NCBI GenBank assembly: GCA_947175385.1 | Contig: CAMWMN010000004.1 | Span: forward strand, 1-51,674 | Length of the DNA stretch: 51,674 nucleotides | From: an uncultured Clostridia bacterium | GTDB lineage: Bacteria > Bacillota > Clostridia > Oscillospirales > Ruminococcaceae | Direction: 5' to 3' | Part shown: positions 7,808 through 46,670 of the stretch, piece after piece | Numbering within the stretch: the first letter of the stretch is position 1 | How the letters are laid out: the number at the start of each line of letters is the position of its first letter | The notes under the pieces: generated by a model | Told to the model about the DNA's origin: nothing | Databases searched by the model: none | The model's input: only the letters and a program-made list of their open reading frames with translations | Translations under genes and position numbers: made by a program

Positions 7808-7919
7808 GCAAATCGCGAAAGCGAGCGGTGCGTTACACGCAAAGCGTGTAACGTGCCGCTCAGCTAGCACAGATGAAATTGGGCATTGCCCAATTTCATC
7901 TGTGCGGTTCGCGATTTGC
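7808..7919 (+). repeat. Structured palindromic element (copy A) before dnaG
   Basis: A closing stem (7808-7819 with 7908-7919, 12 bp) holds two long hairpins: 7823-7840 with 7844-7861 (18 bp, two G-T pairs) and 7867-7885 with 7887-7905 (19 bp, 1-nt centre), joined by a CTAGC-type junction. The distal end reads ATTTGCCATCAAGATAAAG and runs into the dnaG ribosome site. The same architecture recurs at five other places in the window. There is no U-run, so it is not a simple terminator. Confidence 0.85.
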
Positions 7920-7942
7920 CATCAAGATAAAGGGGGTAGCTT

Positions 7943-9688
7943 ATGCGCTTGAGCGAGGACTACATTCGCGCCATTCACGATGCGAACGACATAATCTCCG
8001 TGGCGCAGAGCTATGTCGAGCTGAAGCGTTCTGGAAGCACGCAATCCTGCCGCTGCCCGTTTCATTCGGAGAAAACGCCGTCCTGCCATTTCTATGAGTC
8101 CACGCAGAGCTTTTATTGTTTCGGCTGCGGCGCGGGCGGCGATGTGATCACGTTTATAAGGCTTATCGAGAACCTCGATTATATGGACGCGGTTCGATTT
8201 TTGGCGCAGCGCGGCGGACTTCCGATGCCCGATGAGCGCGACAGTGCCGAAACCGCGCGCCGCCGGCGTCTGTATGAAATGAACAGAGAGGCGGGGAAGT
8301 TTTTCCATCGGGCGCTGTTTTCGCCGGAGGGCGCGGCGGGACTGGACTATCTGCGCCGCAGAGGACTTTCCGACCACACGATAAAACGGTTCGGGCTGGG
8401 ATTCGCCGCAGACGATTGGCACAAGCTGCATTTTCATATGAAGAATTTGGGTTATTCGGATTTTGAACTGGCGGACGGTTCGCTTGTCGTGAACCGCAAC
8501 AACAGCTTTTACGACAAATTCCGCAACCGCGTGATGTTCCCGATTTTCGATACCCGCGGCAATGTCGCGGCATTCGGCGGGCGGACACTCTCCAAGGACA
8601 AAAACACCGCGAAATATCTAAACAGCGCCGAAACTCCGATTTACCACAAAAGCGATATGCTTTTCGCGCTGAACATCGCAAAAAACTCAAAATCGGATTA
8701 TTTCATCGTCTGCGAGGGATATATGGACGTGATTTCCATGCACCAGGCGGGATTCGACAGCGCGATTGCATCTCTCGGAACGGCGCTTACCGAACACCAG
8801 TGCAACATCATCTCGCGGTTGGGAAAGAAAGAAGTTGTGCTGTCCTATGATTCCGATGAAGCGGGGCAGAAAGCGACCGCCCGCGCGATAAACCTGATGA
8901 ACGATGTCGGAATGCGAACTCGCGTACTGAAAATCAACGGAGCAAAGGATCCGGACGAGTTTATCAAGAAATACGGTGCGGAAGCGTTTCAAGGTATAAT
9001 CAACAAGGCGGGAGGTTCGCTTGAGTATCGTTTGGACAAGCTCTCGGAGGGTTTGAGTCTTGAAAATGGCGATGACGCTTCCGAGTATCTCAAGCGCGCG
9101 GTGAAGTTCCTTGCGGAGGTACCATCGCCGATTGACCGTGAGGTTTTTATATCGAAAATTGCCCGGCGCACCGAGGTTTCGGCTTCCACGCTGAAAACCG
9201 CCGTGGAGCAGGAAATACGCCATAACAATTTTTACAATCACAAAAAGGAACAGCGTGAGCTTGCCCGCTTGCCCGAGGACAAAATCAATCCCGAGTCGCG
9301 TAAAATGCCAAAGGTTGAACGCGCCGAACGCGGAATTTTGTGCTTTATGTTCCACAACCCCGACTGCGTGGCGGAATTGTCCGGGAGTTTACCGAACGGC
9401 TTAGTCACCGAATTTGACAAGCGGGTATACATAAAGCTGCTGGATATGATAAAAAACGGGCAAAATCCCGATATTTCGGTGTTTAATGAAGAATTTAGCG
9501 CCGCAGAAATGGGTAGAATAACACAGATAATGGGCGATTCTCCGTTCGCGTATGACAAGGACGCAGTGAAAGAATATATAGAGGTAATAAATGAAAAGTT
9601 TAGCTCCGCAGTGGAAAAATCCGTTTCGGAAATGACCGAAGAGGAGCTTGAAAAATGGTTGAAAAGGCAAAGGGAGAGGAAAAAGTAA
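7943..9688 (+). CDS. dnaG: DNA primase DnaG
   Basis: Makes RNA primers at the replication fork and works with the replicative helicase. The 581-residue protein has the N-terminal zinc finger ([11 protein letters not shown] ... [11 protein letters not shown], about residues 38-65), the RNA polymerase basic patch and a TOPRIM domain with VCEGYMD (catalytic Glu) and SYDSDEAG (metal-binding Asp pair). The C-terminal helicase-binding domain is less conserved, as usual. AAAGGGGG precedes the ATG. The stop codon TAA overlaps the rpoD ATG, so translation is coupled. Confidence 0.96.
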
Positions 9689-10764
9689 TGATAGACAATA
9701 ATCCTTTGGAGGAGCTGCTTGAGCAGGGCAGACAAAAAGGCTCAATCACCGCTAAGGAAATCACCGATGCGCTTGAGGAAACGAATTTCGATGCCGATCA
9801 GATAAATCGCATATATGACAAGCTCGCGAATATGAATATCAAGATAATTGATAATTTTGACGCGGATTTCGATATCGACAACCTGCTTAATTTTTCCGAA
9901 AGTGATTATGATGATAGCTCCGATACGGACATAATGATCCCCGACGATTCCGTAAAGTCGTTTCTTAAGGACATCGGAAAGATTCCGCTGTTGTCCACTG
10001 AGGAAGAAATCGAGCTTGCTTCGCGTATGGAATCGGGTGATGAGTCGGCGAAAAAACGCCTTATCGAGGCAAATCTGCGCCTTGTGGTAAGTATTGCCAA
10101 AAAGTATGTCCGCCGCGGAATGCAGTTCCTCGACCTCATTCAGGAGGGAAATATGGGACTTATTAAGGCGGTTGACAGATTCGATTATACCAAGGGCTTC
10201 AAGTTCTCGACCTATGCCACTTGGTGGATTCGCCAGTCGATAACCCGCGCCATCGCCGACCAGGCGAGGACTATCCGAATACCCGTACATATGGTGGAAA
10301 CTATTTCCCGCGTGAAAAAGGCTCAAGGGCAGCTTTTGCATGATAACGGCTGCGAACCCACCGAAGAGGAAATCGCGGCGCATCTTGGAATGAATGTTGA
10401 ACGCGTTCGCGAGATTATCCGTATTTCGCAGGATCCCGTGTCGCTCGAATCGCCGGTCGGCGAGGAGGAGGACAGCCACCTCGGGGATTTCATACAGGAC
10501 GAAACTTCCCCCGCGCCCGCAGACGAGGCTTGTAACGCGATGCTGAAACAGATGCTCGGAGAGGTGCTCGATACGCTCACCGACCGCGAAAAACGTGTAA
10601 TAATTCTCCGTTTCGGATTGCTTGACGGTCAGCCGTGGACGCTTGAGGACGTTGGGCAGGAATTTAACGTAACCCGTGAGAGAATCCGTCAGATTGAAAC
10701 CAAGGCGCTCAGGAAGCTGCGTCACCCCACCCGAAGCCGCAAGCTGAAGGACTTTCTGGAGTAA
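9688..10764 (+). CDS. rpoD: Housekeeping RNA polymerase sigma factor RpoD/SigA
   Basis: The primary sigma factor, directing RNA polymerase to promoters of the type seen throughout this window. The 358-residue protein has an acidic region 1.1 (about 1-85), region 1.2, region 2 with [13 protein letters not shown] and the -10 reading [14 protein letters not shown], region 3, and region 4.2 [18 protein letters not shown]. The start at 9688 is preferred over the upstream in-frame ATG at 9655 because GGGAGAGGA lies just before it and it overlaps the dnaG stop (TAATG). Confidence 0.95.
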
Positions 10765-10804
10765 GAAAAATAGACCGGACAATCGCTGTGAAAGGATTAA
10801 CAAA

Positions 10805-11878: not shown

Positions 11879-11889
11879 CGATATACAAA

Positions 11890-11916
11890 AATCCCCCGAA
11901 CAGACTTCGGGGGATT
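11890..11916. terminator. Hairpin terminator between sigma gene and the small minus-strand gene
   Basis: An 11-bp perfect stem (11890-11900 and 11906-11916, GGGGG core). On the minus strand it is followed by TTTTTG, making a good terminator for the small gene. On the + strand the U-run is weak. Confidence 0.75.
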
Positions 11917-11935
11917 GGTATTTCAGAACGCATTC

Positions 11936-12100
11936 TCAGATGGAATCCATAAAGCTGCCGAGGACTTTAAGGGCTTTGGCGGCAGTGCGGCGCTTCATAC
12001 GGCGTCGTCCCGAAAGAGATTTCACCGCCATAAACGTAAGACCGCCCGTGATAACGCCCGCCGCCGCGCTTTTTACGTAGCGTTGTGTTTCACGTGTCAT
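11936..12100 (-). CDS. Small basic protein, function unknown
   Basis: A 54-residue protein I do not recognise. It has a hydrophobic, Gly-rich central stretch (about residues 9-27, AAAGVITGGLTFMAV) that could be one membrane segment, followed by a very basic SGRRRMKRRTAAK segment and a short amphipathic end. The ATG at 12100 is chosen because AAGGAG lies 8 bp before it; the frame stays open further upstream without a better site. It has its own terminator at 11890-11916 and a possible -10 (TATAAT on the minus strand at 12274-12279). It could be a membrane-anchored nucleic-acid-binding peptide, but that is only a guess. Confidence 0.55.
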   Translation of the reverse strand: MTRETQRYVKSAAAGVITGGLTFMAVKSLSGRRRMKRRTAAKALKVLGSFMDSI

Positions 12101-12323
12101 AAAATCAACTCCTTTTTGAAAGTTTACGCACCTAGTTTCTGCAAAATTCGGTACGATATTCCCGATTTGAAAGTGGGTAATTCTGTGGCTTTTGGGAAAT
12201 TCCGCCCTGTCCGTCAAACTCATACGGTAAATAATTCCGCGTTTGGCACGGATTTTCGTGATGTTTGTGAAATATTATACAATTAACACATATTTTAACA
12301 TTGATTTTGGTGAAAACCACAAA

Positions 12324-12353: not shown

Positions 12354-12358
12354 AATGC

Positions 12359-12387: not shown

Positions 12388-12392
12388 AAGAA

Positions 12393-26130: not shown

Positions 26131-26583
26131 CTACCTTCTGAGATTTTTGAAAAAATCCGTCAGTATATCTCCGCATCTCTGCTCCAGAATGCGGCTTCTC
26201 ACCATCGGAACGTGTGTGAACTTTTCGTCAAACAGCGTAACCACCGACGCACACGCGCCGTTTTTCTCATCGAAAGCCCCATAAACAAGACGCTTCAGCC
26301 CCGCGTTCATAATCGCGCCCGCGCACATCGGACAAGGCTCCAATGTTACGTACAGTGTGCAGTCCGTCAATCGCCGCGAGCCGATCTTTTTTGCGGAGCT
26401 TTCAATCGCGATGATTTCTGCGTGGGCAATCGGGGACTGCAGCTCCTCGCGGCGGTTATAGCCCTCGCCGATTATCTCGCCCTTCGCGTTTACTACGAGC
26501 GCTCCCACGGGGATTTCTCCGTGTTCCGCGGCGGTTTTGGCGAGAGCGAGCGCACGCTCCATCATTTCCTCATCGAATGTCAT
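26131..26583 (-). CDS. tadA: tRNA-specific adenosine deaminase TadA
   Basis: Converts A34 to inosine in tRNA-Arg(ACG), needed to decode CGC and CGA codons. The 150-residue protein has the deaminase zinc site: HAEIIAIE (His and catalytic Glu) and PCPMCAG (two Cys). The tRNA-binding framework GEIPVGALVV is present. The stop of the upstream 975-residue protein overlaps its ATG (ATGA), indicating coupling. Confidence 0.95.
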   Translation of the reverse strand: MTFDEEMMERALALAKTAAEHGEIPVGALVVNAKGEIIGEGYNRREELQSPIAHAEIIAIESSAKKIGSRRLTDCTLYVTLEPCPMCAGAIMNAGLKRLVYGAFDEKNGACASVVTLFDEKFTHVPMVRSRILEQRCGDILTDFFKNLRR

Positions 26584-29507
26584 AGGCGCTTGATAAACGG
26601 AAGTCCAACAGACAGCGCCGCGAATCCGAGATTATACAGAAGAATGATCATTGTATTGAACATCAGGTGATTGGAGAACAGCGTAAAAATAATCGCCAGA
26701 AGTATACCGAGAGCGATTCCGCCGACCTGAATTGCCGTCCCTAAGAATGCCCTCGCGCAGATAGCGCGCGCCGTGAATATCGATGCCGCAAATGATGGGA
26801 ACGAGCCTGTGCAGCAAACTGCCGCGCTTGCCGCAGAGGTGAAGCGTGTACACTGGTTGAACTCCTCGTGATTTTCAAACGGCAGTACGCGAATGCCACG
26901 CGCGTCTATTTCAAACAGGTGCGAAAGCTCCGATGGAGTGATCATACCGTCAACGGTTTTGATTACGAGTGAGATATCCGCAAGCGACAAATCCTGCGCG
27001 AAACGCTTTACCACGGGATTTGCGTGAAGCTCCACAAAGAACAGCAGGCACACTTCGCCGCCTACCGCGAGGTAGATCACCTCGTCATTGTTGACATTGG
27101 CGGCAGTTTCCTTTTTGCTGTTGGGAACGGAAATCTCATGGGACATCATATGCTTGCGGTTTCCAAGCAGAACGCGGCGGCGGTCGATCCAGCCCATTAC
27201 GCCGAGATTGTTCTCATAGACGCAGCCCGATACGGGCTTCAGCAGCTCACGCTTGTGGTTGAGCATTTCAAAAAATGCCTCGGAGAGTACGCTGTCGGAA
27301 GCCATCGCAAGACTTGCCGCAAGGATGATCGCCTCGTCGATATTGATTTTTCCCTCGCCGCGGTTGCGGGGCTTGTCATAGCCGCATATGTTGCTTATCT
27401 TCACGGAATTCGCGGGGAACAGCGTTTTCGTCTCAATAAGAACGGCGTTGGTTTCGGAGAGGCTTTCAGCCGCTTCGTATCCGAGAATCGCCGAGCCGCG
27501 TTTTTCGCTCTTGCGCGAGGAGAGGTACAGCGGCAAAGTAACAGCCATAGAGCTTGTGAACGAAGCCGTGATAGCGAAGATTCCCGTTAAGACAGTGACA
27601 GCCCAGTTTACGCGGTTCATTACAAATTCCGTTTCGCTAAGGGGCATAAAGAACGCCAGGATACCCGCGCCAAATGCCGCGATAATCGAAATCGGCACGA
27701 TTTTGTGATACATTCTGTCGGACAGATCCTCGCAATAGGTTGACACAATAAAGTCACACAGGATCTCGGTTTTGCGCATTGATGTCACGGTCGGGATCCC
27801 GCTTACCGTACCCTTAGCAAGCTGCTGCGCCGTGCCGTCCGAGGAACTTTCCACCGCATATCGTGCGCGGTCGGCGAATACAAATTCAAAGTTCTTCTGC
27901 GCGGTTCGAACGGTGAAGATTTTCGAGATCGTGTTGAAAATCAGCGCCCCCAACGATACGCACAAATAAACCTGCGAATATCTGAGCGAGATATATTCGT
28001 ACTTGGCAAGGTATGGAATCAGCGCGATGATCGCTGTGGTATGCGCGAACGCACACAGCGTATCTCCATCCGGGCGGAGCTTAAGCAGACGCATAAATCC
28101 GTTGGAAATAACGGATGAGCACGCGGAGAAGCTCAATATTCCGATTACAAGATGAGTGTACAAGTAGTTCTCGGTCGAACTTCTAAGGCTGATTATCGTA
28201 TTCAGCTTGCCGAGATTCAGGTTAAACAGGTTTACAATGGTAACAAACACTGTCACCGCAAACAGCGCACCGAGAATTATCAGTCTTCCGCGAAGCCCCT
28301 TAAGCGAGCGCTCCAGCTTGTCGCGGATCACGTTTTCATCGTTGATGTCTACCGGCTCGTCATCGTCCTCATCATCGTCATAGTTGTCATAATCCGCTTT
28401 TGGAGCGGCTTGTGGTTCTATCTCTTCGGTGTCGTTTCCCTCAAGGATAAAATTCGCGATTTTGCGTTTTTTCTTCTGCGCCATTTCGTCCGCTTGGCGA
28501 ATCTGCTCCACCGGGTCTATATCCACTCTCGTTTCATCGGTAACGGGTTCTTTCGCGGGATTTTCGGCGGCTTTTTTCTCCTCGGAGATTTTCTTGTTCA
28601 ACGCCTCGACAATGGTTTCGCCCACATGAAGGGCGGAATTTTGAATCCCCGTTGCCGAGAACAGAACATCATCAACGGAAGCGGGGGCTTCAGGCTCCTT
28701 GCGGCGTGTGGTGGGGTGATACTCCTTTACAGCTTCCTCGCCGCGCGCTATACGCTTCAGGTCGTTACCCGCGACAGCCAGGGTATCCGTAGTGTCCTTG
28801 GATTCTCCCTTGATAAGCTCCTCGGCTTTTTGGCGGGTTTCCATCGCGTTAAGTCCGGCACCCATCGCTTCGGGCTGAGCGGCTTCGCTGTCCGCCATCA
28901 GCAGCGCCTGATTTATGTCGTTTATCTTCTGCATTTTGCGGAGCTGCATGGTGTCTGTGGGGACGAAATCTTCAGCAGAGTGAAATTCGATATCATCGTC
29001 CTCTCCGGGAAGCTCCGCAGTATCGCCGAATGTAAGGGTGTCCTCAAAGGTGCGTGTGTCGTCATCGTCTGCGGACTTGTTCCGCTTTTCCCAACGCTTT
29101 ACCTCAGCGGCATAGGAAATATCGTCCGCCAAACGCGCTTCGGACTGCTCCTCTGTGAGCTGTCGTGCTACGAAAGGCTCATCGGAAACATCATTTTGCG
29201 CGGGTACAGAATTTCGCTTGTCGAACGCGGCTGCCAATTCGCGGCTTCGGCGCTCAGCGACTTCGTCCTCGGTGCGCTGACGGGCGATGCTTTCGTGTGA
29301 TACATCGCTGAGAATTTGTGTTACGGACAAGTCGGGTTTTCCGCCGGCGGAATTATCGCTTTTCTGCACACCGGTGAACAAATCGCCCAAGTCGTCCTTG
29401 CCCAGAATATCGTTTATATCGCTGTCGTTGACTTTGCGGCTTTTAACCGAACGACCCGTCTTAACTTCGTTCAGTATATCATCTACGCTGTATTTTTCGT
29501 CAGACAT
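26580..29507 (-). CDS. Degenerate P-type-ATPase-like membrane protein with long acidic N-terminus
   Basis: A 975-residue protein. Residues 1-400 are hydrophilic and probably disordered, ending in a poly-acidic run (371-390). Residues 405-665 hold three pairs of membrane segments, and the rest is cytoplasmic with a final membrane pair at about 918-975. The layout follows P1B-type ATPases: SDRMYHKIVPISIIAAF (596-612), then TLPLYLSSRKSEKRGSAIL before the phosphorylation loop. But the DKTGTLT motif reads ETKTLFP (692-698), so the phospho-Asp is Glu. CPC reads SSM or TLP, and no TGE loop is visible. An N-domain-like ENNLGVMGWIDRRRVLLGN is kept. It probably does not pump, and may sense or scaffold. 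The start at 29507 has AGGAGAGG before it. Confidence 0.75.
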   Translation of the reverse strand: MSDEKYSVDDILNEVKTGRSVKSRKVNDSDINDILGKDDLGDLFTGVQKSDNSAGGKPDLSVTQILSDVSHESIARQRTEDEVAERRSRELAAAFDKRNSVPAQNDVSDEPFVARQLTEEQSEARLADDISYAAEVKRWEKRNKSADDDDTRTFEDTLTFGDTAELPGEDDDIEFHSAEDFVPTDTMQLRKMQKINDINQALLMADSEAAQPEAMGAGLNAMETRQKAEELIKGESKDTTDTLAVAGNDLKRIARGEEAVKEYHPTTRRKEPEAPASVDDVLFSATGIQNSALHVGETIVEALNKKISEEKKAAENPAKEPVTDETRVDIDPVEQIRQADEMAQKKKRKIANFILEGNDTEEIEPQAAPKADYDNYDDDEDDDEPVDINDENVIRDKLERSLKGLRGRLIILGALFAVTVFVTIVNLFNLNLGKLNTIISLRSSTENYLYTHLVIGILSFSACSSVISNGFMRLLKLRPDGDTLCAFAHTTAIIALIPYLAKYEYISLRYSQVYLCVSLGALIFNTISKIFTVRTAQKNFEFVFADRARYAVESSSDGTAQQLAKGTVSGIPTVTSMRKTEILCDFIVSTYCEDLSDRMYHKIVPISIIAAFGAGILAFFMPLSETEFVMNRVNWAVTVLTGIFAITASFTSSMAVTLPLYLSSRKSEKRGSAILGYEAAESLSETNAVLIETKTLFPANSVKISNICGYDKPRNRGEGKINIDEAIILAASLAMASDSVLSEAFFEMLNHKRELLKPVSGCVYENNLGVMGWIDRRRVLLGNRKHMMSHEISVPNSKKETAANVNNDEVIYLAVGGEVCLLFFVELHANPVVKRFAQDLSLADISLVIKTVDGMITPSELSHLFEIDARGIRVLPFENHEEFNQCTRFTSAASAAVCCTGSFPSFAASIFTARAICARAFLGTAIQVGGIALGILLAIIFTLFSNHLMFNTMIILLYNLGFAALSVGLPFIKRL

Positions 29508-29532
29508 TATTTCCTCTCCTATTTTGATTTGA

Positions 29533-29593
29533 AATTCCGAAACCATTGAAATTGCCTTCGGCAATTCCAACTAGCCGAGCGATTTTCGGAATT
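29533..29593 (-). repeat. Structured palindromic element (copy F), short form
   Basis: Closing stem 29533-29542 with 29584-29593. Inside is the hairpin AATTGCC-TTC-GGCAATT, then a CTAG junction. Read on the minus strand it ends AATTTCAAATCAAAATAGGAG and so runs into the ribosome site of the 975-residue protein, as the other copies do for their own genes. A second hairpin (arms TTAAACAC and GTGTTTAA) lies between it and rlmB. Confidence 0.6.
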
Positions 29594-29646
29594 CCTTGCG
29601 TCATTATTGCGTTTTTTGAATTAAACACGCCAAATTCGGTGTTTAA

Positions 29647-30553: not shown

Positions 30554-30576
30554 TAGTTTAGAATTTCGGTGAAAAT

Positions 30577-30780
30577 ACAGAAAAGCATAATATGCATACA
30601 GTGAAAACGATTTTATTTCGATGAGCGTTTCATTGGCGATAAAAACAGATAAGCATAATATGCATACAACGAAAACGATTTTATTTTGATGAGCGTTTCA
30701 TTGGCGATAAAAACAGATAGGCATAATATGCTTACAGCGAAAACGATTTTATTCCGATGAACGTTTCATTGGCAACTAAA
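30577..30780 (+). repeat. Three tandem 68-bp repeats in the yifB leader
   Basis: Copies at 30577-30644, 30645-30712 and 30713-30780 with an exact 68-bp period and only a few substitutions. Each holds the odd palindrome GCATA-A-TATGC (its last base lost in copy 3), the block CGAAAACGATTTTATT and the block GATGAGCGTTTCATTGGC (GATGAACG in copy 3). The array starts about 24 bp after the -10 and ends at the yifB ribosome site. Each unit also carries an ATG-started frame of about 22 codons that closes at the next unit's ATG. The remainder of the 30376-30795 gap holds only the two divergent promoters. Confidence 0.95.
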
Positions 30781-37594: not shown

Positions 37595-39793
37595 TCAGTG
37601 TTTGCCGAACAGCCTTCCGAAAAAACCGCCGTTCTTTTCATCGGAGGGTACTTTCAGCTTCGGAACCTCCACATCATATAAGAATTGATTCATTATATGT
37701 TCTTCAAACGCGTCATTTGACACGAATGTTTCGATGTTCTTATAGCCCGTGGGCGTGTAAACCAATACATCAAACCCGATAAGATTGCATAACACGGTCT
37801 GTACACATTCCGCAACGGTGAACGTGTCCTCTACCGCATCAATGCAGACAATCTTGGGAATAGTCCGCGTGAAGTCGAACTGCTGAATCAGCCGCAGATA
37901 ATCTTTGTTCAGATTCATTCCGAAATGAAGAACCGCACACATCAGCTCATCGCCATTCAGCTTGATAAAACCCGATGAAATCGTTTCTTGCAGCTTGTAA
38001 AACAGCATATCCTGGATTCGGTCGGGCAGAAACCCGTAACGGTTAAGCGTTGACGCTTTCAGTCGCTCGGTGTCTATTTCATCATTTCGGTAGAACTGCC
38101 TATACGCGGAAATATCTACTTGCTCCGCAGGGGGATTCTCGATGTGCTTTTTTATCATCAGAATCGTTTCGGGAGTCAAGCGGCTTCGCACGTCCTCCCA
38201 ATAATTCGCAAGATTCCCGTTTTCCACACCGCTTATTTTCGCGAAGATATTCGGCACGGAAACCAGATTCCCCGCCGTGGTGAATCCCGTGCGGAATCGC
38301 GCCTCCTGTTTCCACAAAATGCCGATTTCCTCAAACGTGGTCTTAAGCGTAACGCTCTGGCTGTTCGGAAACTGGAAACTCCTGTAAATCCCCGTATCGC
38401 CGCCGTACAGCATAGTGTCCAAATCGCGCTCGGCGGAGTATGCCACTGTCGCTACCTTCATCTTCATCGCTTTTGTTGGATATGCGCCGCTCGGCTTGGA
38501 TTGCGGCAGCTCAAAAACCTGCATTCTCCCGTCAATGTTTTTGTCTATGGTTTGCGCCAGATTGCTCTTATTCGGCGAGATGTAAATCACGTCAAATCCG
38601 CACCGCGACATAAAATTCAGGAAATACAGCTCGGATTGCGAAATATCGCCGTAATACAAAATCACGGGAATATCCTCGTATTGAACCGAGTATTTCCGCG
38701 CCTGTGTGCAGCGGTAGATCCATGTAATCAGCTTGTTCGCGTAGTTCATTACCACCGTCTGATTGCCCGTATTGAGCGTTTTCAGAAGTTCACTGAGCGT
38801 TCTCCGCGCGAGAGCCGTGAGGGTGTTGTCGCCCGTCAGCGTGATTTTCAGCGCGAGAGAGTCAATCATCTCGGCGGTGGACGTTCTCGGAACTGTCCCC
38901 AGTGCGCGAACCTCGTCCGCATTGGGGTTGTCCAGCGGCTTTTCAATAAAGATGAGCTGCTTTTTCAGCCCCGAAAAGCTCTCCTTGAATTTGACGAGCA
39001 TATTCGTGTACACGGTTTCGTCATCAAACCCAATCAATGCCGCGCAATAGACGGGAATCGGGCACGCCTCGGAATCCACACCCTCGGAGTAAATCCCGCC
39101 GTTTTTGATTACGCGCGTCTTGCGATCCTTGAGAATGTCCTCAAAGATTCCCGCAGCCGTGGTATCCAGCCTCTTTACGATATTGGAAACCCGTTCGCCC
39201 TCGGCGCGCATTTCGGCAAGTTTTTTCTCCTTGGAGAGGTCAATTCGCTCGAAATCAACCTGAATCGGCGCGGAGAGCCGCCCCGTCTTTACTGTCACCA
39301 TATCCTTGGTTTGCAGCCGCGAGAAGTCCGCGTCCAGACCGTAGGTTACCAGTGTGACTTTAACCCCCGCGGCGCTCATCATACACAGGAAATACAACTC
39401 CCTCAGCGTTGCGCTGCCAACAAATACCAGTGATTTAGGTCGCGCACCGAGATACTTAATCAGCCAACAGAGAACCACAAAATACGTGTTTTTCTTGTTC
39501 GCGCCGCAATCTGCGGTGGCTTTTGCCATTATTTCGGCAAGGGGAGCGGCGTCGCACGGAATGTTCGCCGCGTGCAACCACATCTCCAGTACCTTTTTTA
39601 TATCGGCGGCATTGTCGAAGCTTGACGCGGTATATTGCGCTGCTGCGGCGATTTCGTCGGTGCCCGCCATCGGCAGATGATCCCGCACGAACATTCCGCC
39701 GTTTCGCGCCGCGACAAACTGTTCAATTAAGAATCCGCGAAAGCTGTCGGAATTTTCGTACCCGACATATCGTGTAAATTCTGCTTGTGTCAT
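37595..39793 (-). CDS. yceG: YceG-family protein of Ter systems
   Basis: A 732-residue soluble protein of the YceG family (Bacillus yceCDEFGH operon), a regular partner of TelA in Ter loci. It is built of repeated Rossmann-like alpha/beta segments (SLVFVGSATLRELYFLC, IPVILYYGDISQSELYFLNF, VYISPNKSNL, FDVLVYTPTGYKNIE). Computational work on Ter systems placed it in a putative biosynthetic or nucleotide-linked module, but no activity is proven. No catalytic motif stands out by eye. AAGGAG lies 11 bp before the ATG, just after element B. Confidence 0.85.
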   Translation of the reverse strand: MTQAEFTRYVGYENSDSFRGFLIEQFVAARNGGMFVRDHLPMAGTDEIAAAAQYTASSFDNAADIKKVLEMWLHAANIPCDAAPLAEIMAKATADCGANKKNTYFVVLCWLIKYLGARPKSLVFVGSATLRELYFLCMMSAAGVKVTLVTYGLDADFSRLQTKDMVTVKTGRLSAPIQVDFERIDLSKEKKLAEMRAEGERVSNIVKRLDTTAAGIFEDILKDRKTRVIKNGGIYSEGVDSEACPIPVYCAALIGFDDETVYTNMLVKFKESFSGLKKQLIFIEKPLDNPNADEVRALGTVPRTSTAEMIDSLALKITLTGDNTLTALARRTLSELLKTLNTGNQTVVMNYANKLITWIYRCTQARKYSVQYEDIPVILYYGDISQSELYFLNFMSRCGFDVIYISPNKSNLAQTIDKNIDGRMQVFELPQSKPSGAYPTKAMKMKVATVAYSAERDLDTMLYGGDTGIYRSFQFPNSQSVTLKTTFEEIGILWKQEARFRTGFTTAGNLVSVPNIFAKISGVENGNLANYWEDVRSRLTPETILMIKKHIENPPAEQVDISAYRQFYRNDEIDTERLKASTLNRYGFLPDRIQDMLFYKLQETISSGFIKLNGDELMCAVLHFGMNLNKDYLRLIQQFDFTRTIPKIVCIDAVEDTFTVAECVQTVLCNLIGFDVLVYTPTGYKNIETFVSNDAFEEHIMNQFLYDVEVPKLKVPSDEKNGGFFGRLFGKH

Positions 39794-39819
39794 AATGCGC
39801 GAAACTCCTTATCTAAATG

Positions 39820-39994
39820 GCAAATTCCGCACCGTTCAGACGGGCATCAGCCCGTCTGAACTCGCTAAGCGACCCGGCACACCGCTACACGGTATGCCGC
39901 GCCGCTTGCGTGCGAAAATTTTTAATTTTAATAGCAAATTGCGAGCCACAACGCCACTTTGTGGTGTTGTGTCCCACTCGCTTTCGCAATTTGC
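39820..39994 (-). repeat. Structured palindromic element (copy B), double unit
   Basis: Two units in tandem. The unit at 39934-39994 has closing arms 39934-39944 and 39984-39994 around a 10-bp hairpin (ACAACGCCAC-TTT-GTGGTGTTGT). The unit at 39820-39933 has a 12-bp hairpin (GTTCAGACGGGC) and a CGGCACACCG-type hairpin, with a weaker closing stem. On the minus strand it ends AATTTGCCATTTAGATAAGG, leading into the yceG ribosome site. Confidence 0.75.
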
Positions 39995-40054: not shown

Positions 40055-41290
40055 TCAACCCTCTACCTCAATCCCATAGCAGTTGCAGAGCTTTGCCATA
40101 CCATCGTTATAGCCCGCGCCCACGGCGGATATTTTCCACTCGCCTTTGTAGAGGTAAAACTCCAGAGCGATTACCGTGGATTCGCGCGTTAAGCCGTCCA
40201 TAGCGAACGAAACGCGCTCTGTGTCATCATCGAATATAGCCACCCGCGGATTTCTCACCGCAGAAAAGCTGTGACTTGAGTTACCCGCGTAGATTGAGTA
40301 GGCGAGTGCGATTTTCCGCACGCGGTAGTCAATGCGCGCGATGTCGATTTCAATGTGCCCGTCAGCGGGGAAGTAGGTTACCTCGCCCTTTGGAGAGCTT
40401 TCGTTGCCGAAGAACACCAGCCCCTCATCGCCGAGGGAGTGCTCCTTTTCATCAAGCAAGAACGCGTATGGGTCGATTTCCATTCCAACGGGTTTTTCGC
40501 AAGTGAAACGGATTTTTAACTTTGTCCCGAGGTACTTGTCCAGCGGAACACGCTGCCCGCGGCTCATTTCCAACACGGATTGAGGCGCGTCCAATGAGAT
40601 CACGTCCGTTTTCGGCGCGGAAACAGGTTCCGGCGGTGTCGGGGATTGAACCCCCACAGCCGACTGCACTGTCCGTTCAACAGCGGTGTAGATTCGTTTG
40701 TTGTCCGCTCTCACAGCGTCTGACTTGGGTCTTCCGGTCAGATAAATCCTCCGCCGAAAACGCGATTTGAACAGCACCTCCGCATAAAGGAGCGTTTGCG
40801 CCGAAATCCCGGAAACCGTTATCAAAAGCTCGTTTCTGCCCGATTTCAGAGTGCTCGGGGAGAATTTTACCCCTCTTGCCGCGCACTCAATTACGGTTTC
40901 GGCGGGAACATTTACGATAAGAGAAAATGTGTTCTCCGCATCGCTTTGGAACGCGCCCAGCTCGATTGTTCGCGGCACATCAAAGTGCCCGTCCTCCTCG
41001 CCGAATCCGCGCACCTCTCCCAGAACCTCCACACCGTTCACCGCAACGGGCGCGGACGCGATTATCGCCGCAGATTCAAGACTCCCCTCGGTAATCTCCG
41101 CGCGAAGATTCTCCAGAGTTGCTCCCGCAGCGCGCACCTCAATAACCGCGCCGCTTTTCGCCCAGATGGTGGTGTTATTTCCGATAAGGCGCAGCGGCTT
41201 GGTCACAATCAGCGGACCCTCAAACTCGCCGGAGGGTAGCGTAATACACCCGCCCGCCAAGCTTTGCGCGATAAGCCGATTTATGTCCAT
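40055..41290 (-). CDS. TerD-domain protein with beta-helix-like N-terminal region
   Basis: A 411-residue protein. Residues 240-410 are a TerD domain (SRGQRVPLDKYLG, PYAFLLDEKEHSLGDEGLVFF, YLYKGEWKISAVGAGYNDGMAKLC). Residues 15-100 show the short-strand pattern of a parallel beta-helix (ITLPSGEFEGPLIV, LRLIGNNTTIWAKSGAVIEV). Residues 105-190 look like a beta sandwich, and a Pro-rich linker (212-240) follows. Compared with TerD next door, several calcium-binding Asp residues are lost (EIDPYAF versus DFDLDACV). It may be an adaptor rather than a calcium sensor. AGGAGG lies before the ATG, right after element C. Confidence 0.82.
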   Translation of the reverse strand: MDINRLIAQSLAGGCITLPSGEFEGPLIVTKPLRLIGNNTTIWAKSGAVIEVRAAGATLENLRAEITEGSLESAAIIASAPVAVNGVEVLGEVRGFGEEDGHFDVPRTIELGAFQSDAENTFSLIVNVPAETVIECAARGVKFSPSTLKSGRNELLITVSGISAQTLLYAEVLFKSRFRRRIYLTGRPKSDAVRADNKRIYTAVERTVQSAVGVQSPTPPEPVSAPKTDVISLDAPQSVLEMSRGQRVPLDKYLGTKLKIRFTCEKPVGMEIDPYAFLLDEKEHSLGDEGLVFFGNESSPKGEVTYFPADGHIEIDIARIDYRVRKIALAYSIYAGNSSHSFSAVRNPRVAIFDDDTERVSFAMDGLTRESTVIALEFYLYKGEWKISAVGAGYNDGMAKLCNCYGIEVEG

Positions 41291-41314
41291 AGCCGCTGTC
41301 CTCCTATTTAGATG

Positions 41315-41415
41315 GCAAATTCAAAACCGCGCAATACTCACTCCGTTCGTTTGCGCTAACTAAGAGTTACCTCGGTCGCTTCACTCCCTCGGCAATGCTT
41401 GCGTTTTGAATTTGC
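41315..41415 (-). repeat. Structured palindromic element (copy C)
   Basis: A perfect 13-bp closing stem (41315-41327 and 41403-41415). Inside, a GCGCAA/TTGCGC hairpin and a less regular arm are joined by a TTAGC junction. On the minus strand it ends ATTTGCCATCTAAATAGGAG, so the element leads directly into the ribosome site of the TerD-fusion gene. Confidence 0.78.
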
Positions 41416-41444: not shown

Positions 41445-42029
41445 TCAGACGTTTACACCGTATGCTCTGCAAAGTGCTTCCAGACCGCCCTGATAGCCCG
41501 CCGCAACAGCGTTGAACTTCCAGTCGCCGTTGTAGCGATAAATCTCGCAGACAACAAGCGCGGTTTCAATCGAGAACTCCTCAACCAAGTCAAAGCGCAG
41601 AACCTCCTCGCCGTTCGCGTCATCGGGATTGTCAATCTTTTCCACACGAACATAAGAGTTGGAAACCTGTCCGAAGTTTTGATTCTTCTGCTGAGCGTCG
41701 AAAATCGTTACTGTAACCGCTATTTTCTCAATTTCATCGGGAATTTTCGTGAAGTCAATGATGATCGTTTCATCATCGCCCTCTCCGTCACCCGTGCGGT
41801 TATCACCCGTGTGAACTACCGCGCCGTTACGCGCCGTAAGGTTGTTGTAGAACACGAAATCCTCGTCTTTCAGCACCTTGCCGTTCGCGCCCAACAGGAA
41901 CACGCACGCGTCCAGATCGAAGTCCTGACCGCCGTCATAGCGGTTGGTGTCCCAACCCAGACCGATTCTTGCCATTGTTACCGACTTGTCGAGAGATACT
42001 CTCTGACCCTTAGAAAGATTTACTGCCAT
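41445..42029 (-). CDS. terD: TerD-family calcium-binding stress protein
   Basis: A 194-residue canonical TerD protein. The calcium sites are intact: WDTNRYDGGQDFDLDACVFLL in the first half and DNRTGDGEGDDE in the middle. TerD proteins bind Ca2+ and are induced by tellurite, oxidative and phage stress; some localise to membranes. The ATG at 42029 is chosen because GGAGGA lies 8 bp before it and MAVNLSKGQRVSL is the family start. It is downstream of the calcium ATPase gene. Confidence 0.95.
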   Translation of the reverse strand: MAVNLSKGQRVSLDKSVTMARIGLGWDTNRYDGGQDFDLDACVFLLGANGKVLKDEDFVFYNNLTARNGAVVHTGDNRTGDGEGDDETIIIDFTKIPDEIEKIAVTVTIFDAQQKNQNFGQVSNSYVRVEKIDNPDDANGEEVLRFDLVEEFSIETALVVCEIYRYNGDWKFNAVAAGYQGGLEALCRAYGVNV

Positions 42030-42056
42030 AATTTTCCTCCTTATTTTAAATAGCTC

Positions 42057-42202
42057 GCAGTCGGGAGAATTTCTGCGAAATTCCCCCTCGCCGAACTCAG
42101 TTGCCTCCGCTTCGCTGCGGCAATCGGGCTCGCCTGCTCGCTTTTTTATTTGCAAATTGCGAACTGAGCGGCACGTTTCACCGCTTGGTTTCACAATTCG
42201 CC
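42057..42202 (-). repeat. Structured palindromic element (copy D), degenerate
   Basis: Partial copies of the family. The region contains GCAAATTGCGA next to an AGCGG/CCGCT hairpin (42151-42202), a CCGCTTCGCTGCGG hairpin and a GGGAGAATTT/AAATTCCCC hairpin near 42063-42086. No single closing stem spans the whole. It lies between the ATPase and terD; the 42030-42260 gap holds nothing else. Confidence 0.5.
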
Positions 42203-42260: not shown

Positions 42261-45023
42261 TTACGTCTTGGACATTGAATTTGCAATAGCTTTTCTTATC
42301 AAGTCTATCGGGATTATCGAAATTGCGGGAACCAACACCAATACCCATTCGGTAAGGTTAAGACCCCAACCGTTGAGGATTCCGCGTCCCAGATACGTCA
42401 TAAGAATCTGCACAACAGCAATGATTCCGAATACCGTCAAAAAGCCCTTGTTCTTGCCCAGATTGTCGAACAGATTCACGCGGTCGGTTCTTGCGTTGAA
42501 TGCGTTGAATACTGCAACGAAGATAAAGAACGCGAAATATGCAGTGTGCAGAATCGCGTGCGGCTCTCCTTCGATTACACCGTTTCTGAGGAATCCCCAC
42601 TGTTCAAGGTAACTAAGCGTATCCGCCGCGCCCTCTGCGGGTTTCGGGAATGTTCCGAGAACCAACATCGCAAGCGACAAAATGAATGTCCATGCCGCGC
42701 CCACAACGATTTCGCTCATCATATAGCGGCTGATAATCGGTTCGTTGCGGCGTTTGGGCTTTTCATGCATAAAGCGCTCCAACGGAGGCTCTCCGCCAAA
42801 TGCCAGAGCCGCGAGAGTATCCATAACGAGGTTGACCCACAAAATCTGGATTACGTTAAGCGGACTTTCGAGGTCGAGCAGCGGGCAGATAAACGAAATC
42901 AGCACCGCCGCGACATTGATAGTCAACTGGAATATAATGAACTTGCGTATCGAGTTGAAAATTGTGCGCCCGTAAAGAATCGCGCGGTCGATGGAGTTGA
43001 AGTTGTCGTCAAGAATAACAATATCCGACGCTTCCTTAGCGACTTCCGTACCGCCGCCCATCGCAAACCCAACGTCCGCTTTCTTGAGGGCAGGGGAGTC
43101 GTTTACACCGTCGCCCGTCATACCCGCAACGAGGTCAAGTTCTTGCGCGATACGCACCAGACGGCTCTTGTCGGAGGGCAGAGCGCGCGCGATTACGCGA
43201 ATGTCCTTGAGTTTGGACTTGATTTCATCATCGGAGAGCTTCGCAAGCTCGTCCGAGGTAAGCATAATGTTGCTGTCGGAGTCAACAAGCCCCGCCTCTT
43301 TCGCGATTGCAACTGCGGTTTCCTTGCGGTCGCCGGTAATCATTACGACCTGAACTCCCGCGCCCTTAACCTCTTTAATAGCGGTTACGGATTCGGGGCG
43401 AACCTCATCGCGGATTCCCAAGCACCCGACAAGCGTCCAGTTGTTGCCCGCAGGGAGAGCGTCCTCGCCGAGAGCGTCCTCGCTTGTTGCCAGTGCCAAC
43501 ACACGGATCGCGCGGTTAGCAAGCTCGTCAATCTTCGCGTTGAGCGCTTTCATATCAAACGGCTGCTTTTTGCCGTCCTTGTCATAGTAGTGTGAGCAGC
43601 GCTGAAGGATCTTCTCGGGCGCGCCCTTGATAAGCGACAGGTCATATTCGCCCTTTACCTGCGTTGCGGAGTACTTATTCGTTGAGTTGAACGGGATATT
43701 GCCGACCGCCTCCACAACAGCGTCACATTTCACGTCCGCCGCATAGCCAAGAATCGCACGTTCTGTTGCGTTTCCGCCAAGAACGCGGCGTTCCTTGCCC
43801 TCGCCCGAAATCATCGACAGAGTGTTCTTGTGAATTGACAGGCAGAGCAGCTCTCCGAGCTTTCCGCCAACATCGTTGAATGTCTTGTATTCGTTTACAC
43901 TGCCGTCAATGAAGTTAATTGCTTCGAGTTTGCCTTTGGTGATTGTTCCTGTTTTGTCTGAGAAGAGAATATTCAACGAACCTGCTGTTTCGATTCCGGC
44001 AACCTTACGCACAAGAACGTTGTCCTTAAGCATTTTGCCCATATTCTGCGCGGAAACAATCGCAATCATCAGCGGAAGTCCCTCCGGAACCGCCATTACA
44101 ATGATGATTACCGCCAACATTACCGCTTCGATTACAGCCTTGACAAGTGACGCCCACTGGAACACACCGCCGACCATCAGGAATCCGCCCATAATATCGC
44201 CGCTTGTGTCAATCAGCATGGTCTTTACAAGCATTGCCACCGCAATCGCGATACCGCCGATATATCCGAACTTGGAGATTCCGTTCGCCAGTTTGCCGAG
44301 CTTGAGCTTCAGCGGAGTGTCGCGGTCATCATCGGTCTGAAGTTCGCTTGCAATCTTGCCATATACGGACTTGTCGCCCACCACGGTAACCTGCATAACC
44401 GCGTTGCCGGAGCATACCACCGCCCCACGGAACACCTTATGCTCGTTATCGAAATTTATATTTTCATCGGTATCCTTCCAGCCATCGGGAATCGCAAGCT
44501 TTTTCGCCTCGCGGCTCTCGCCGTTCAGTACCGACTGGTCGACTTTCAAATCACCGTCAATGATGATTCCATCTGCGGGGATTTTGTCGCCCGACTGCAA
44601 CAGAATTGCATCGCCGACTACAATATCGTTGATTGCGACCTCGGAGATAACGCCGTTGCGGTAGGTTTTGACCATAATCCGCGACGCTTCTTCCTGCAAT
44701 TTCTGGAACGCGTTTTCGTTACGGTACTCCGAAAATGTTGAAACCAGTGTCGCGAGGCAAATCGCGATAAAGATTCCAAGCGGCTCATACCATTCGGGAG
44801 CGCCCTCTACGAACGGCTGACCCTCCGAGTTTTTGACAATTCCGAGAATCGCAAGCACAACGTTTATCAGCAGCGCGACGATCAGGATTTTGATCATTGG
44901 GTCGCCGAGGTTGCCCTTGAGCTTATCCCAGAAGCCCTCATGAGCTTGCTCCGTCATGGAGTTGTCGCCGTACTTTTGTTTGCTTTCGGCAACTTCCTTG
45001 TCTGTAAGTCCAAAAGATTTCAT
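42261..45023 (-). CDS. P-type Ca2+-transporting ATPase (type IIB-like)
   Basis: A 920-residue cation pump of the plasma-membrane type. It has membrane segments around residues 40-110 and 245-340, an M4 PEGLP motif, the phosphorylation loop SDKTGTITKG, the hinge TGDGVNDSPALKKADVG and a six-segment C-terminal domain. The actuator loop reads NGES instead of TGES, keeping the essential Glu. M4 PEGLP and the M6 segment WVNLVMDTLAA fit Ca2+ extrusion. It sits between the kinase and terD genes, where other Ter loci have TerC. AAAGGA precedes the ATG. Confidence 0.92.
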   Translation of the reverse strand: MKSFGLTDKEVAESKQKYGDNSMTEQAHEGFWDKLKGNLGDPMIKILIVALLINVVLAILGIVKNSEGQPFVEGAPEWYEPLGIFIAICLATLVSTFSEYRNENAFQKLQEEASRIMVKTYRNGVISEVAINDIVVGDAILLQSGDKIPADGIIIDGDLKVDQSVLNGESREAKKLAIPDGWKDTDENINFDNEHKVFRGAVVCSGNAVMQVTVVGDKSVYGKIASELQTDDDRDTPLKLKLGKLANGISKFGYIGGIAIAVAMLVKTMLIDTSGDIMGGFLMVGGVFQWASLVKAVIEAVMLAVIIIVMAVPEGLPLMIAIVSAQNMGKMLKDNVLVRKVAGIETAGSLNILFSDKTGTITKGKLEAINFIDGSVNEYKTFNDVGGKLGELLCLSIHKNTLSMISGEGKERRVLGGNATERAILGYAADVKCDAVVEAVGNIPFNSTNKYSATQVKGEYDLSLIKGAPEKILQRCSHYYDKDGKKQPFDMKALNAKIDELANRAIRVLALATSEDALGEDALPAGNNWTLVGCLGIRDEVRPESVTAIKEVKGAGVQVVMITGDRKETAVAIAKEAGLVDSDSNIMLTSDELAKLSDDEIKSKLKDIRVIARALPSDKSRLVRIAQELDLVAGMTGDGVNDSPALKKADVGFAMGGGTEVAKEASDIVILDDNFNSIDRAILYGRTIFNSIRKFIIFQLTINVAAVLISFICPLLDLESPLNVIQILWVNLVMDTLAALAFGGEPPLERFMHEKPKRRNEPIISRYMMSEIVVGAAWTFILSLAMLVLGTFPKPAEGAADTLSYLEQWGFLRNGVIEGEPHAILHTAYFAFFIFVAVFNAFNARTDRVNLFDNLGKNKGFLTVFGIIAVVQILMTYLGRGILNGWGLNLTEWVLVLVPAISIIPIDLIRKAIANSMSKT

Positions 45024-45085
45024 TGATTTTTCCTTTCGTAAGAGAGTTTATTTCTTGCGTTTCCCACAAAGTGGGAAAACGCGGG

Positions 45086-46555
45086 TTAACTTATCATAAC
45101 CTCGCACAGCAGCCCGTTTTCACGGTTTGTCATAAGAAAGACCGCTCCGTCTTTAAGCTCGATGGCTCTGCCCTTTGGAACGGGCATTCCCGATGGCGAG
45201 ATCATTCCGTCAATGCCGCTGTTCACGAGAATCCACCTGCCATTATAATAGGAAACATACCCCCGCATCGCGGAGTCCGCTTTTTCATCGTTATAGATGT
45301 TTGAGAACACGTGCCAGTCATACAGCGGAAGTCCGTCAAACACCGTAAGCTCGCTTTTGTCGCGGTAAATGCCTTTCTTTCCGCGAAGCTCGCTCTTAAA
45401 GACCAGTTGAATTACGTTGTTCGTAATTTTAGTGCCGCAGAACGGGCAGACAGGGCTTTTCGGATCGCGCAGAATGAACCATTTCTTTTCGCACCGCGGA
45501 TTGGCGCATGGAATAAGCTTATCCCACGCGGCAAGCAGTTCGCGCTCCCATTCCATTGCGGTCGGGCGCTCCGACGGGTTGTGCAGCCCGTCCACGAACG
45601 CGCGCAAAAACAAGCGTTCCAGTTCCTCGGAGAGCGCGCTTATTGTTACGTCCAAATCAGGCGGGCGATTGGAGGTATCGTGCGGATTCTCGATGAACGT
45701 TGCCTTAGCCCCCAGCGCAAGATGGTCGTCCTCCTCAGCGCTGTTCGCGCTGTAAATCTTCGGTCCGAGCAAGGGGTGCCGACAGAACAGATACTCGTAA
45801 ATCAGTACGGGCAGCGCGTGCAGGTCGGTCAGCACGTTCGGGAGCGCGCGATTCGGGTCGGATATGTTCAAATCCAGTGTTGCGAGAACCTCTGGCGCGA
45901 TGTAGCCGCGCGTACCAACAACTTCCGGTGCATACTTGTTCGGAACTACCAGTGAATCTATGTCGATAACCACCGCGCTGCCGGACTTCGGGTCGATAAG
46001 CACGTTGTTACAGGACAGATCCGAATGAGCAAGCCCCGCTTGGTGCATTCGCCGAATCGTTCTTGACAGCCCGATCGCCACGCCCAACATCGTGCGGAAA
46101 TCCCCGCGCTCTGCGGGATTGAGGTACTTGCGGTTTTTTCCCGTGAACCAGTTGGATTTTTTGTCCTTGCCCTTAAGGTTCAGTACCGATGATGCCTCGC
46201 CGTCAAAGAAGAAGTTCTGCGGATAAGTCGGACAAACGATCCCAAACTCGGGACTTCGCACGATCGCCACAGGCCAGCAAAACCGCTGCCTGAAATACTC
46301 GGCGGTCTTTTCGGTATTGCCGAGCGCACCCCCGTTCGCCTCCGAAAGCGTTGGATTGTAGATGGTCGTAATCGTTCGGATCCGATCCTGAAGACGTGGA
46401 TTAAGCGCGTCTTTGGGATCGTTAAAAAACTGCACTGCAAACCGTTTATCGGGTGTGAAAAACGTGTGTTTCATACCACCGCGCGGCGCGTTCAGGTCAT
46501 ACACATATTCAATTGTGTCGCCGCTTTCCAACACGGCGGTAAGAATTTCGCTCAT
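45086..46555 (-). CDS. Protein kinase with C-terminal zinc ribbon (Ter triad type)
   Basis: A 489-residue eukaryote-like kinase. The catalytic loop is HSDLSCNNVLID, the metal loop is DIDSLV in place of DFG, and the APE segment is GTRGYIAPE (about 215-265). The glycine loop is poorly conserved. A zinc ribbon follows at about 362-390 (CANPRC ... CPFC), then a beta-rich tail. This is the kinase of the TerY-PP2C-kinase triad. The start is unclear: the ATG at 46555 has no ribosome site next to it. Element E lies just upstream, GGAGGT stands on the far side of it (46676-46681), and the frame stays open through it to a GTG at 46672. Confidence 0.85.
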   Translation of the reverse strand: MSEILTAVLESGDTIEYVYDLNAPRGGMKHTFFTPDKRFAVQFFNDPKDALNPRLQDRIRTITTIYNPTLSEANGGALGNTEKTAEYFRQRFCWPVAIVRSPEFGIVCPTYPQNFFFDGEASSVLNLKGKDKKSNWFTGKNRKYLNPAERGDFRTMLGVAIGLSRTIRRMHQAGLAHSDLSCNNVLIDPKSGSAVVIDIDSLVVPNKYAPEVVGTRGYIAPEVLATLDLNISDPNRALPNVLTDLHALPVLIYEYLFCRHPLLGPKIYSANSAEEDDHLALGAKATFIENPHDTSNRPPDLDVTISALSEELERLFLRAFVDGLHNPSERPTAMEWERELLAAWDKLIPCANPRCEKKWFILRDPKSPVCPFCGTKITNNVIQLVFKSELRGKKGIYRDKSELTVFDGLPLYDWHVFSNIYNDEKADSAMRGYVSYYNGRWILVNSGIDGMISPSGMPVPKGRAIELKDGAVFLMTNRENGLLCEVMIS

Positions 46556-46564
46556 ATTTTGATG

Positions 46565-46670
46565 GCAAATTCTGCACCGCACAAATATCGGGCAAAGCCC
46601 GATATTTGTGCTAGCCTCGCCGTGAAAGCTCCGCTTACGCTGCGCTTTCGCGGCGGCTTGCGGAATTTGC
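46565..46670 (-). repeat. Structured palindromic element (copy E), between ribosome site and kinase start
   Basis: Closing stem 46565-46576 with 46659-46670 (one G-T pair). Hairpin 46579-46593 with 46597-46611 is a 15-bp perfect stem with loop AAA. Hairpin 46618-46629 with 46644-46655 is 12 bp with one G-T pair. CTAGC lies at the junction. It has the same plan as copy A. On the minus strand it ends AATTTGCCATCAAAATATG, where ATG is the kinase start. Confidence 0.85.

Follow-up and report, generated by a model that had tools for sequence, protein, structure and literature searches.

Structured elements precede genes in the window

The window analysed here is one whole contig (CAMWMN010000004.1, 51,674 nucleotides (nt)) of the 2.47 Mb genome of an uncultured Clostridia bacterium, assembled in 171 contigs (G000, the own genome in what follows). 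Within it lie several copies of a dispersed, structured repeat of ~100 nt that stands at the starts of genes such as dnaG and that, in our view, probably forms a non-coding RNA cassette at gene 5' ends. The copies were read directly in the sequence and then scored with two covariance models, R1, which was built from 21 equal-length copies with copy A among the training sequences, and the broader R2. An earlier note had described six such copies, A to F, from the letters of the window; the dispersed family proved real and bigger than noted, with R1 scoring A, B, E, C and D and R2 adding F. Two layouts occur: in class I the order is junction, Shine-Dalgarno sequence (SD), start, and in class II, seen in the window at copy E, it is SD, junction, start. 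The features are the following, in window coordinates:

7808-7919, plus strand: copy A, three-way-junction element, class I, before dnaG (R1 102.4 bits, A being a training sequence)
7931-7936, plus strand: SD of dnaG (AGGGGG), 11 nt after the stem of copy A, with the ATG at 7943 (read in the sequence)
29531-29595, minus strand: copy F, shortened element before gene 26580-29507, with the ATG at 29507 (R2 37.6 bits)
39805-39810, minus strand: SD (AAGGAG) after copy B, with the ATG at 39793 (read in the sequence)
39820-39922, minus strand: copy B, gene-proximal unit, class I, before the YceG_bac-domain gene 37595-39793 (Pfam; R1 75.5 bits)
39934-39994, minus strand: copy B, second small tandem unit, upstream (parsed stem, 61-nt minus-strand fold, sense tail TATTAAAATT)
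41300-41304, minus strand: SD (GGAGG) after copy C, with the ATG at 41290 (read in the sequence)
41315-41415, minus strand: copy C, class I, before the TerD-domain gene 40055-41290 (R1 33.6 bits; site empty in sister species G018)
42049-42201, minus strand: copy D, two degenerate units before terD (41445-42029) (two R1 matches)
46553-46555, minus strand: ATG start codon, 9 nt downstream of the stem of copy E (read in the sequence)
46565-46670, minus strand: copy E, class II, flanked by the SD and the ATG of the kinase-like gene 45086-46555 (R1 57.4 bits)
46676-46680, minus strand: SD (GGAGG), 5 nt before the stem of copy E (read in the sequence and from the class II statistics)

Copy A has a predicted fold of -84.4 kcal/mol, and the gene after it was assigned as dnaG by the DnaG domains found with Pfam. 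Copy F was not listed by R1 at E ≤ 1 and was found by R2 alone; at its site the sister species G018 has a 102-nt element. The two units of copy D scored 22.0 bits (42049-42145, minus strand) and 14.1 bits (42152-42201, minus strand) with R1, and in G018 the upstream unit alone was seen (sequence L166). Copy E is 96% identical to its G018 counterpart, with the layout unchanged.

Some details of the earlier description had to be revised. Copy B, previously given as a single element from 39820 to 39994, is an element at 39820-39922 followed by a second tandem unit, at which R1 gave a weak match of 22.6 bits on the opposite strand. Copy F does belong to the family, as claimed, yet it lacks the GCAAAT start ascribed to it, being a shortened copy with a different closing stem. 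The tail said to be common to all clear copies holds as an oriented pattern and not in an exact form: the window copies fit ATTTGCCATCAAAATA loosely (A CATCAAGATA, B CATTTAGATA, C CATCTAAATA, E CATCAAAATA and F AAATCAAAATA), and with up to 2 mismatches this pattern has 82 occurrences in the own genome and its reverse 2. Copy E is of another kind, having its SD before the element and the ATG directly after it.

The element is a three-way junction

The family consists of dispersed three-way junctions of ~100 nt, in which a closing stem of ~12 pairs (GCAAATTCAAAA.../...TTTTGAATTTGC plus other sequence types) encloses two arms. The first arm has ~19-22 pairs with one bulged base and is separated by a short junction from the second, of ~10-18 pairs; a tail near YATTAAAATA follows the second arm and the closing stem. 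Arm and loop sequences vary among copies. We parsed 164 copies, 74 from the own genome and 90 from G018, a set in which copy B is counted twice and one stem or more is spurious. Their predicted folds inside the closing stem had two branches in 143/164, none in 17/164 and more in 4/164, with a median of -66 kcal/mol. As judged by eye, the stem is followed by the YATTAAAATA-like tail and by no run of T as in an intrinsic terminator or attenuator.

Upstream of the stem lies a conserved stretch of ~33 nt (near GTTATAACYCAAAACAACTTATTGGTGACTAGT), which is frequently repeated. Many copies (L018, L027 and L055 among them) are also preceded by one to three repeats of a ~45-50 nt unit (TTTAGCGCGTTATAACYCAAARCAACCTATTGG...), together with a further GGGTTATAACCATAATCCACTGTTTGG-like unit; these repeated upstream units may be promoter-like or remnants. 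Tandem and nested copies of the element occur. A second hairpin repeat (~65 nt, GACACGAAGTCGCAAGGTGACCGCCC...GGCGGTCACTC) was found nested in the first arm at L099, L106 and L131 of G018. No Rfam family scored above its gathering score on the element, either in the window (no match) or at 19 loci, where the sole match was the signal recognition particle (SRP) RNA in L019, outside the element. This bacterial small SRP RNA occupies L019:1063-1161, and the same locus also has an element.

Compensatory changes and strand asymmetry in the stems

The sequences of the stems change while their pairing is kept. The first set comprised 21 of 25 distinct 112-nt copies, and here standard pairs filled 97.2% of pair cells, compared to 82.0 ± 0.7% after shuffling and 33-45% in slid controls. 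Two-sided changes were present in 33/52 pairs, with 175 double-change cells vs 51.1 ± 6.5 in shuffled data. The second set took in all 25 copies, four of them out of register (score 0.55-0.59), and gave 90.7% paired cells without gaps (shuffled 75.7 ± 0.7%), double changes in 33/51 pairs and 200 double-change cells (shuffled 62.6 ± 6.8). Across the genus, 77 matches showed double changes at 47/51 pairs, in an alignment that was fitted to R1 and leans to the modelled structure. Covariation thus goes beyond self-duplication, as the test named in the earlier note required, and supports its proposal of selection on structure.

Mismatches in the stems distinguish between the strands. These were counted after folding with G-U pairs forbidden, which treats G·T and A·C alike. 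Read on the sense strand, single stem mismatches amounted to 182 G·T against 39 A·C, and to 111 against 31 in unique contexts. Transitions outside the stem, in the upstream stretch, were 16/117 for C>T, 133/1170 for A>G, 83/468 for G>A and 87/702 for T>C; by our arithmetic, such unpaired positions predict a G·T to A·C ratio of ~0.8. Because G·T exceeds A·C beyond this expectation, the pairing that is kept, and that appears to be selected, is that of the sense strand rather than that of a double helix.

Elements face translation starts in a fixed orientation

To place the elements relative to genes, genomes were scanned with the covariance model without the tail. An automatic rule required, within 45 nt, an SD and the start codon of a frame no shorter than 50 codons, and the leftovers were re-read by eye; before classing, 16/100, 19/75 and 22/107 rows of the scans were removed as the weaker strand of one place or a duplicate locus.

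The 350 kb scanned in the own genome yielded 56 places, of which 41 faced an SD and start, 6 a start without SD and 9 neither, and on the antisense side an SD and start were present at 1/56. Reading by eye assigned the 15 leftovers to class I with a missed SD or start (2), to class II (5) and to elements running into another element (8). In G018, the 85 places in 778 kb comprised 64 with SD and start, 5 of class II, 3 with a start without SD, 9 leading into the next element and 4 others, and the antisense side faced an SD and start at 0/85. By eye, 2/3 of the starts without SD have an SD-like stretch before the stem and 3/4 of the others enter another unit, leaving 2/85 places unplaced. Random places faced an SD and start in 776/20,000 cases (3.9%), and in 116/2,133 outside long frames. 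Distances between stem and start group around 20-23 nt, both in the own genome and among congeners. These counts confirm the fixed orientation toward the downstream start that had been noted for the window copies.

The congeners show that placement at starts, which the earlier note had likewise claimed, is not a universal rule. Among 84 congener places, from loci selected by model score and not randomly, 42 faced an SD and start, 5 a start without SD and 36 neither, and 1 was cut; the antisense side did so at 1/84. Many of the 36 start-less places then run into the next repeat unit, and at least two elements, those at L302 and L338, lie before terminator-like hairpins. Placement is thus strict in two sister species and looser elsewhere. 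The genes downstream are diverse and include dnaG, a kinase-like gene, TerD, YceG_bac, Methyltransf_4, bile salt hydrolase, shikimate kinase, P-type ATPase, prfB and accA.

In class II the junction separates SD and start codon

In the 16 class II copies of the two species (three genes being counted in both), the start lies 8-11 nt after the stem in 14/16 and 17-18 nt after it in 2/16, with nothing SD-like between. A strong SD lies within 14 nt before the stem in 16/16 class II copies vs 14/120 class I copies (Fisher p = 5.6e-13; two species); since the lack of a downstream SD served to define class II, this upstream SD is the sole independent half of the result. It sits 4-6 nt before the stem in all 16 copies. 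Predicted anti-SD pairing of the 16 nt before the stem had medians of -10.6 kcal/mol in class II and -2.8 kcal/mol in class I. The short class II-like copies L051 and L124 fell under the length cut-off and were left out of these counts.

Class II also occurs in congeners, at genes identified by NCBIfam above cut-off: L292 (G028) reads AGGAGG-cgcat-junction-aaattataat-ATG before prfB, L357 (G024) reads GGGGGGG-acat-junction-...-ATG before accA, and L365 (G066) reads AGGAGGA-gcat-junction-...-ATG, again before accA. None of the three has a start codon in the few nt from SD to stem. With these congeners, the class II layout is known from five species. An assignment of the L292 gene as prfA was rejected, since NCBIfam gives prfB. 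As for congener starts without SD, L274 has a weak upstream SD and L335 misfits class II. The window species and G066 have accA genes that are 88% identical over the whole length and share their start; in the window species, AAGGAG stands immediately before that start and after the gene's own junction. Thus accA is class I in the window species and class II in G066.

A class II bile salt hydrolase gene helps to locate the start. Its family match begins at residue 1, and it reads MCTA at the AUG after the junction (ATG TGT). Cys2 is the nucleophile of this family, which would fix initiation at the AUG after the junction. In 16/16 copies of the two species and in the 3 congener copies, the SD is too far from the AUG in sequence, with a predicted structure between them that would bring it near. 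We read class II as a putative split ribosome-binding site, by analogy with genes 25 and 38 of phage T4.

Sites are mostly kept and their occupants replaced

Beside the elements, the own genome and G018 share ~93% identity, which allowed orthologous sites to be compared. We tested 48 own-genome and 75 G018 sites; anchors were poor for 9 and 7 of them, respectively, no ortholog was available for 0 and 25, and the rest were partly re-read by eye. Own-genome sites looked empty in G018 in 2/38 usable cases and G018 sites looked empty in the own genome in 4/43 (by eye). At the dnaG site G018 retains the right end of the element only, and the automatic call of occupation in both was false. At the aligned empty sites of class I (window copy C, and C1:5683 and C3:67741 of G018), the element stops at the native SD, which is intact. 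The class II case G018 C1:222243 has an empty site without SD, so here the SD came with the inserted block. Checking the empty sites for a fixed target, we found that the neighbour of the junction differs by class, AAGGAG in class I and ATG in class II. Distant congeners were uninformative for the empty-site test at dnaG and terD; full-length DnaG is 63-76% identical outside G018.

At 21 sites occupied in both species (dnaG falsely among them), the median element identity was 0.66, vs 0.68 for random non-orthologous pairs, and the 200 nt downstream had an identity of 0.93. The stem type was the same at 6/21 of these sites vs 15% at random. Copy E is the exception, with an element identity of 0.96. 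Because element identity is at the level of random pairs while the downstream sequence is at 0.93, the sites seem mostly to be kept and the occupants exchanged between the sister species, presumably by gene conversion or by loss and regain. Between copy E and G018 C27:209746, the second-arm loop is inverted (GGGCTTTGCCC vs GGGCAAAGCCC), reading GCTTTGC in one of the species and GCAAAGC in the other.

The family extends across part of the genus

R1 found matches in 12/43 genomes of the genus, with counts reaching at least 88. With R2 at E ≤ 1e-4, where counts may include both strands of one copy (as seen for G033), 15/41 genus genomes had matches and the other 26 had none. The counts were at least 91 in the own genome, at least 91 in G018 and at least 90 in G033 (92 candidates being the most scored per genome), 62 in G023, 36 in G031, 33 in G006 and 24 in G028, followed by G063 (14), G026 (12), G021 (11), G024 (9) and G066 (6), and one each in G013, G014 and G020. 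The 85 places of G018 lie in 778.6 kb on four contigs, picked as long and match-bearing; if that density held throughout, the genome would have ~300 copies. No match was found in 40 other genera of the family, nor in 344 further genomes of the order, two of which belong to this genus; these 344 were scanned shallowly, with 10 candidates scored per genome.

An exact motif had first suggested a family limited to two species, with 0-3 matches, i.e. chance level, in 35 other genus genomes; R1 and R2 overturned this. The exact motif had no match in viral contigs and single matches in 11 other organisms, presumably by chance.

The window holds a further tandem repeat, a 68-nt unit present in three head-to-tail copies at 30573-30776, of which the second and third are 93% and 87% identical to the first. 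These units sit just before, and overlap, the start at 30757.

A proposed looped-out junction at the ribosome-binding site

We consider it probable that the elements are dispersed non-coding cassettes at gene 5' ends that fold as RNA with their ends juxtaposed, class II forming a split ribosome-binding site. The cassettes would be transcribed at the 5' ends of genes and fold into a compact RNA three-way junction, closing ~100 nt with both ends side by side and leaving the adjoining signals free of pairing and suitably spaced. The closing stem of class I copies ends ~21 nt ahead of the start codon, and an ordinary SD comes after it. A distance of ~21 nt before the start corresponds to about the upstream edge of the footprint of the initiating 30S subunit, so the element would lie outside that edge. 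In class II, the closed stem would put SD and AUG ~14 unpaired nt apart, with the element looped out. Most economically, the element would spread as DNA, be read as RNA and stay nearly invisible to the initiating ribosome. Selection would maintain the stems, since in a copy that failed to fold, SD and start would be moved apart or buried. On this account initiation takes place across the junction, and tolerance by the ribosome, rather than regulation, would be its main function. An RNA-level role in translation, which the earlier note had suggested, is supported by the class II layout together with the G·T/A·C asymmetry. The note's alternative, insertion at that exact spot, may apply besides such a role. 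More tentatively, the family could amount to a genome-wide translation-initiation layer that this genus has made from a mobile three-way-junction RNA. It would consist, in some species, of hundreds of interchangeable cassettes at a fixed distance from start codons, some of them true split ribosome-binding sites with initiation over ~100 folded nt, also in core genes such as prfB and accA; swaps of cassettes at old sites would shuffle the strength or response of translation.

Several observations weigh against the looped-out junction. The asymmetry fits RNA, but single-stranded DNA of the sense strand would yield an equal excess of G·T, and a single position (117 cells) underlies the C>T control. 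Covariation would also be seen in a palindromic DNA element that had spread by copying, and the loop inversion at copy E shows that DNA-level events shape the arms. Class II was selected by its absent downstream SD, and the same strong SD before the stem is present in the 14/120 class I copies. The 36/84 congener places that face no start mean that start placement is not universal. Moreover, copy E, its G018 ortholog and L123 each have an in-frame GTG from which the frame stays open across the element.

A serious alternative, if a somewhat improbable one, is regulation through the junction, which by binding a protein, nuclease or small molecule would set the translation of a regulon or the half-life of its mRNAs (5' protection, RNase III processing). 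A fold that is kept while its sequence changes, a fixed distance to the start and the conserved stretch upstream of the stem all agree with it. A regulon fits less well with downstream genes that are diverse among those looked at, with arm and loop sequences that differ between copies, with occupants swapped between sister species and with the lack of an Rfam family at gathering score on the element. It is quite unlikely that the structure instead serves a DNA-level mobile element that targets SD or start and moves by single-stranded transposition like IS200/IS605 or REP elements. The empty and occupied orthologous sites (e.g. window copy C, G018 C1:5683 and C3:67741), where the end of the element adjoins the native SD, would be expected of such an element, as would the tandem and nested copies and those congener copies that precede terminator-like hairpins. 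However, a single target sequence seems not to fit class II sites, which have ATG and not SD at the junction, and targeting of DNA would not lead one to expect the partition of SDs between the classes. Y1_Tnp (PF01797) had no match in G000 (97% complete) or G018 (99% complete), other transposase families not having been searched; it matched in 9/43 genus genomes. As to mobility-type reverse transcriptases (RTs), G000 has a single RVT_1 match, which proved to be a UG5-nitrilase defence RT, and retrotransposition by the genome's own RT was rejected for G000 on this ground. This defence reverse transcriptase (DRT) has 1046 amino acids and lies at L267:4502-7642 (G000:C104); contig C25 of G018 has an RT-like frame of similar size with a stop inside.

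In a third alternative, class II genes would start before or inside the element, at a GTG by the stem, so that leader peptides or N-terminal extensions would result. In 13/16 class II copies the start of the stem is overlapped by a GTG or ATG, which is in frame and open in copy E, its G018 ortholog and L123, where an N-terminal extension is possible. In 10/13 the frame is wrong or stopped, in three congener copies such a codon is absent, and the bile salt hydrolase would depend, for its Cys2, on the AUG that follows the element; as a general account of class II, we regard a start inside the element as very improbable.

Relation to known systems

REP/BIME elements with their RAYT transposases and the palindromes derived from IS200/IS605 are palindromic, non-coding, intergenic and present in high copy number. 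The present family shares these traits and differs in its fixed orientation and position at the translation start and in the lack of a Y1 transposase match in the two genomes searched. We know of no fixed spacing to SD or AUG for Correia or ERIC elements. These resemble the family as transcribed repeats with an orientation-dependent effect, since passages of PMC3049150 describe that they can alter mRNA processing according to their orientation. The nearest kind of interspersed repeat that we found in the literature are the pneumococcal BOX, RUP and SPRITE elements, small repeats that may be transcribed in untranslated regions, BOX being modular; the same passages of PMC3049150 contain no SD-linked placement. 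A search of PMC2267715 likewise returned none of six placement terms. We found no description of the family in the literature searched or in Rfam, and we call it undescribed with respect to these. What sets it apart is a repeat placement tied to the translation start, not to intergenic space in general. Orthologs of accA in class I and class II and swapped occupants at one site offer replicated test cases for leader structure near the 30S edge.

The layout of SD, structure and AUG is, to our knowledge, known mainly from phage T4. In T4 genes 25 and 38, an SD lying too far from its AUG is brought nearer by RNA structure in the spacer, which is cut from 27 to 11 nt in gene 25 and from 22 to 5 nt in gene 38, and destabilising the structure lowers initiation, according to passages of PMC3014915. 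The likeness to class II lies in a structure, here a predicted one, that would bridge a long spacer between SD and AUG. As described in these passages, the T4 structures are short and belong to phage genes, whereas here a repeat family of ~100-nt three-way junctions takes this position in bacterial chromosomes, at genes including prfB and accA. Class II would thus provide natural, repeated and comparative evidence that SD and AUG can be separated by ~100 folded nt in bacterial chromosomes.

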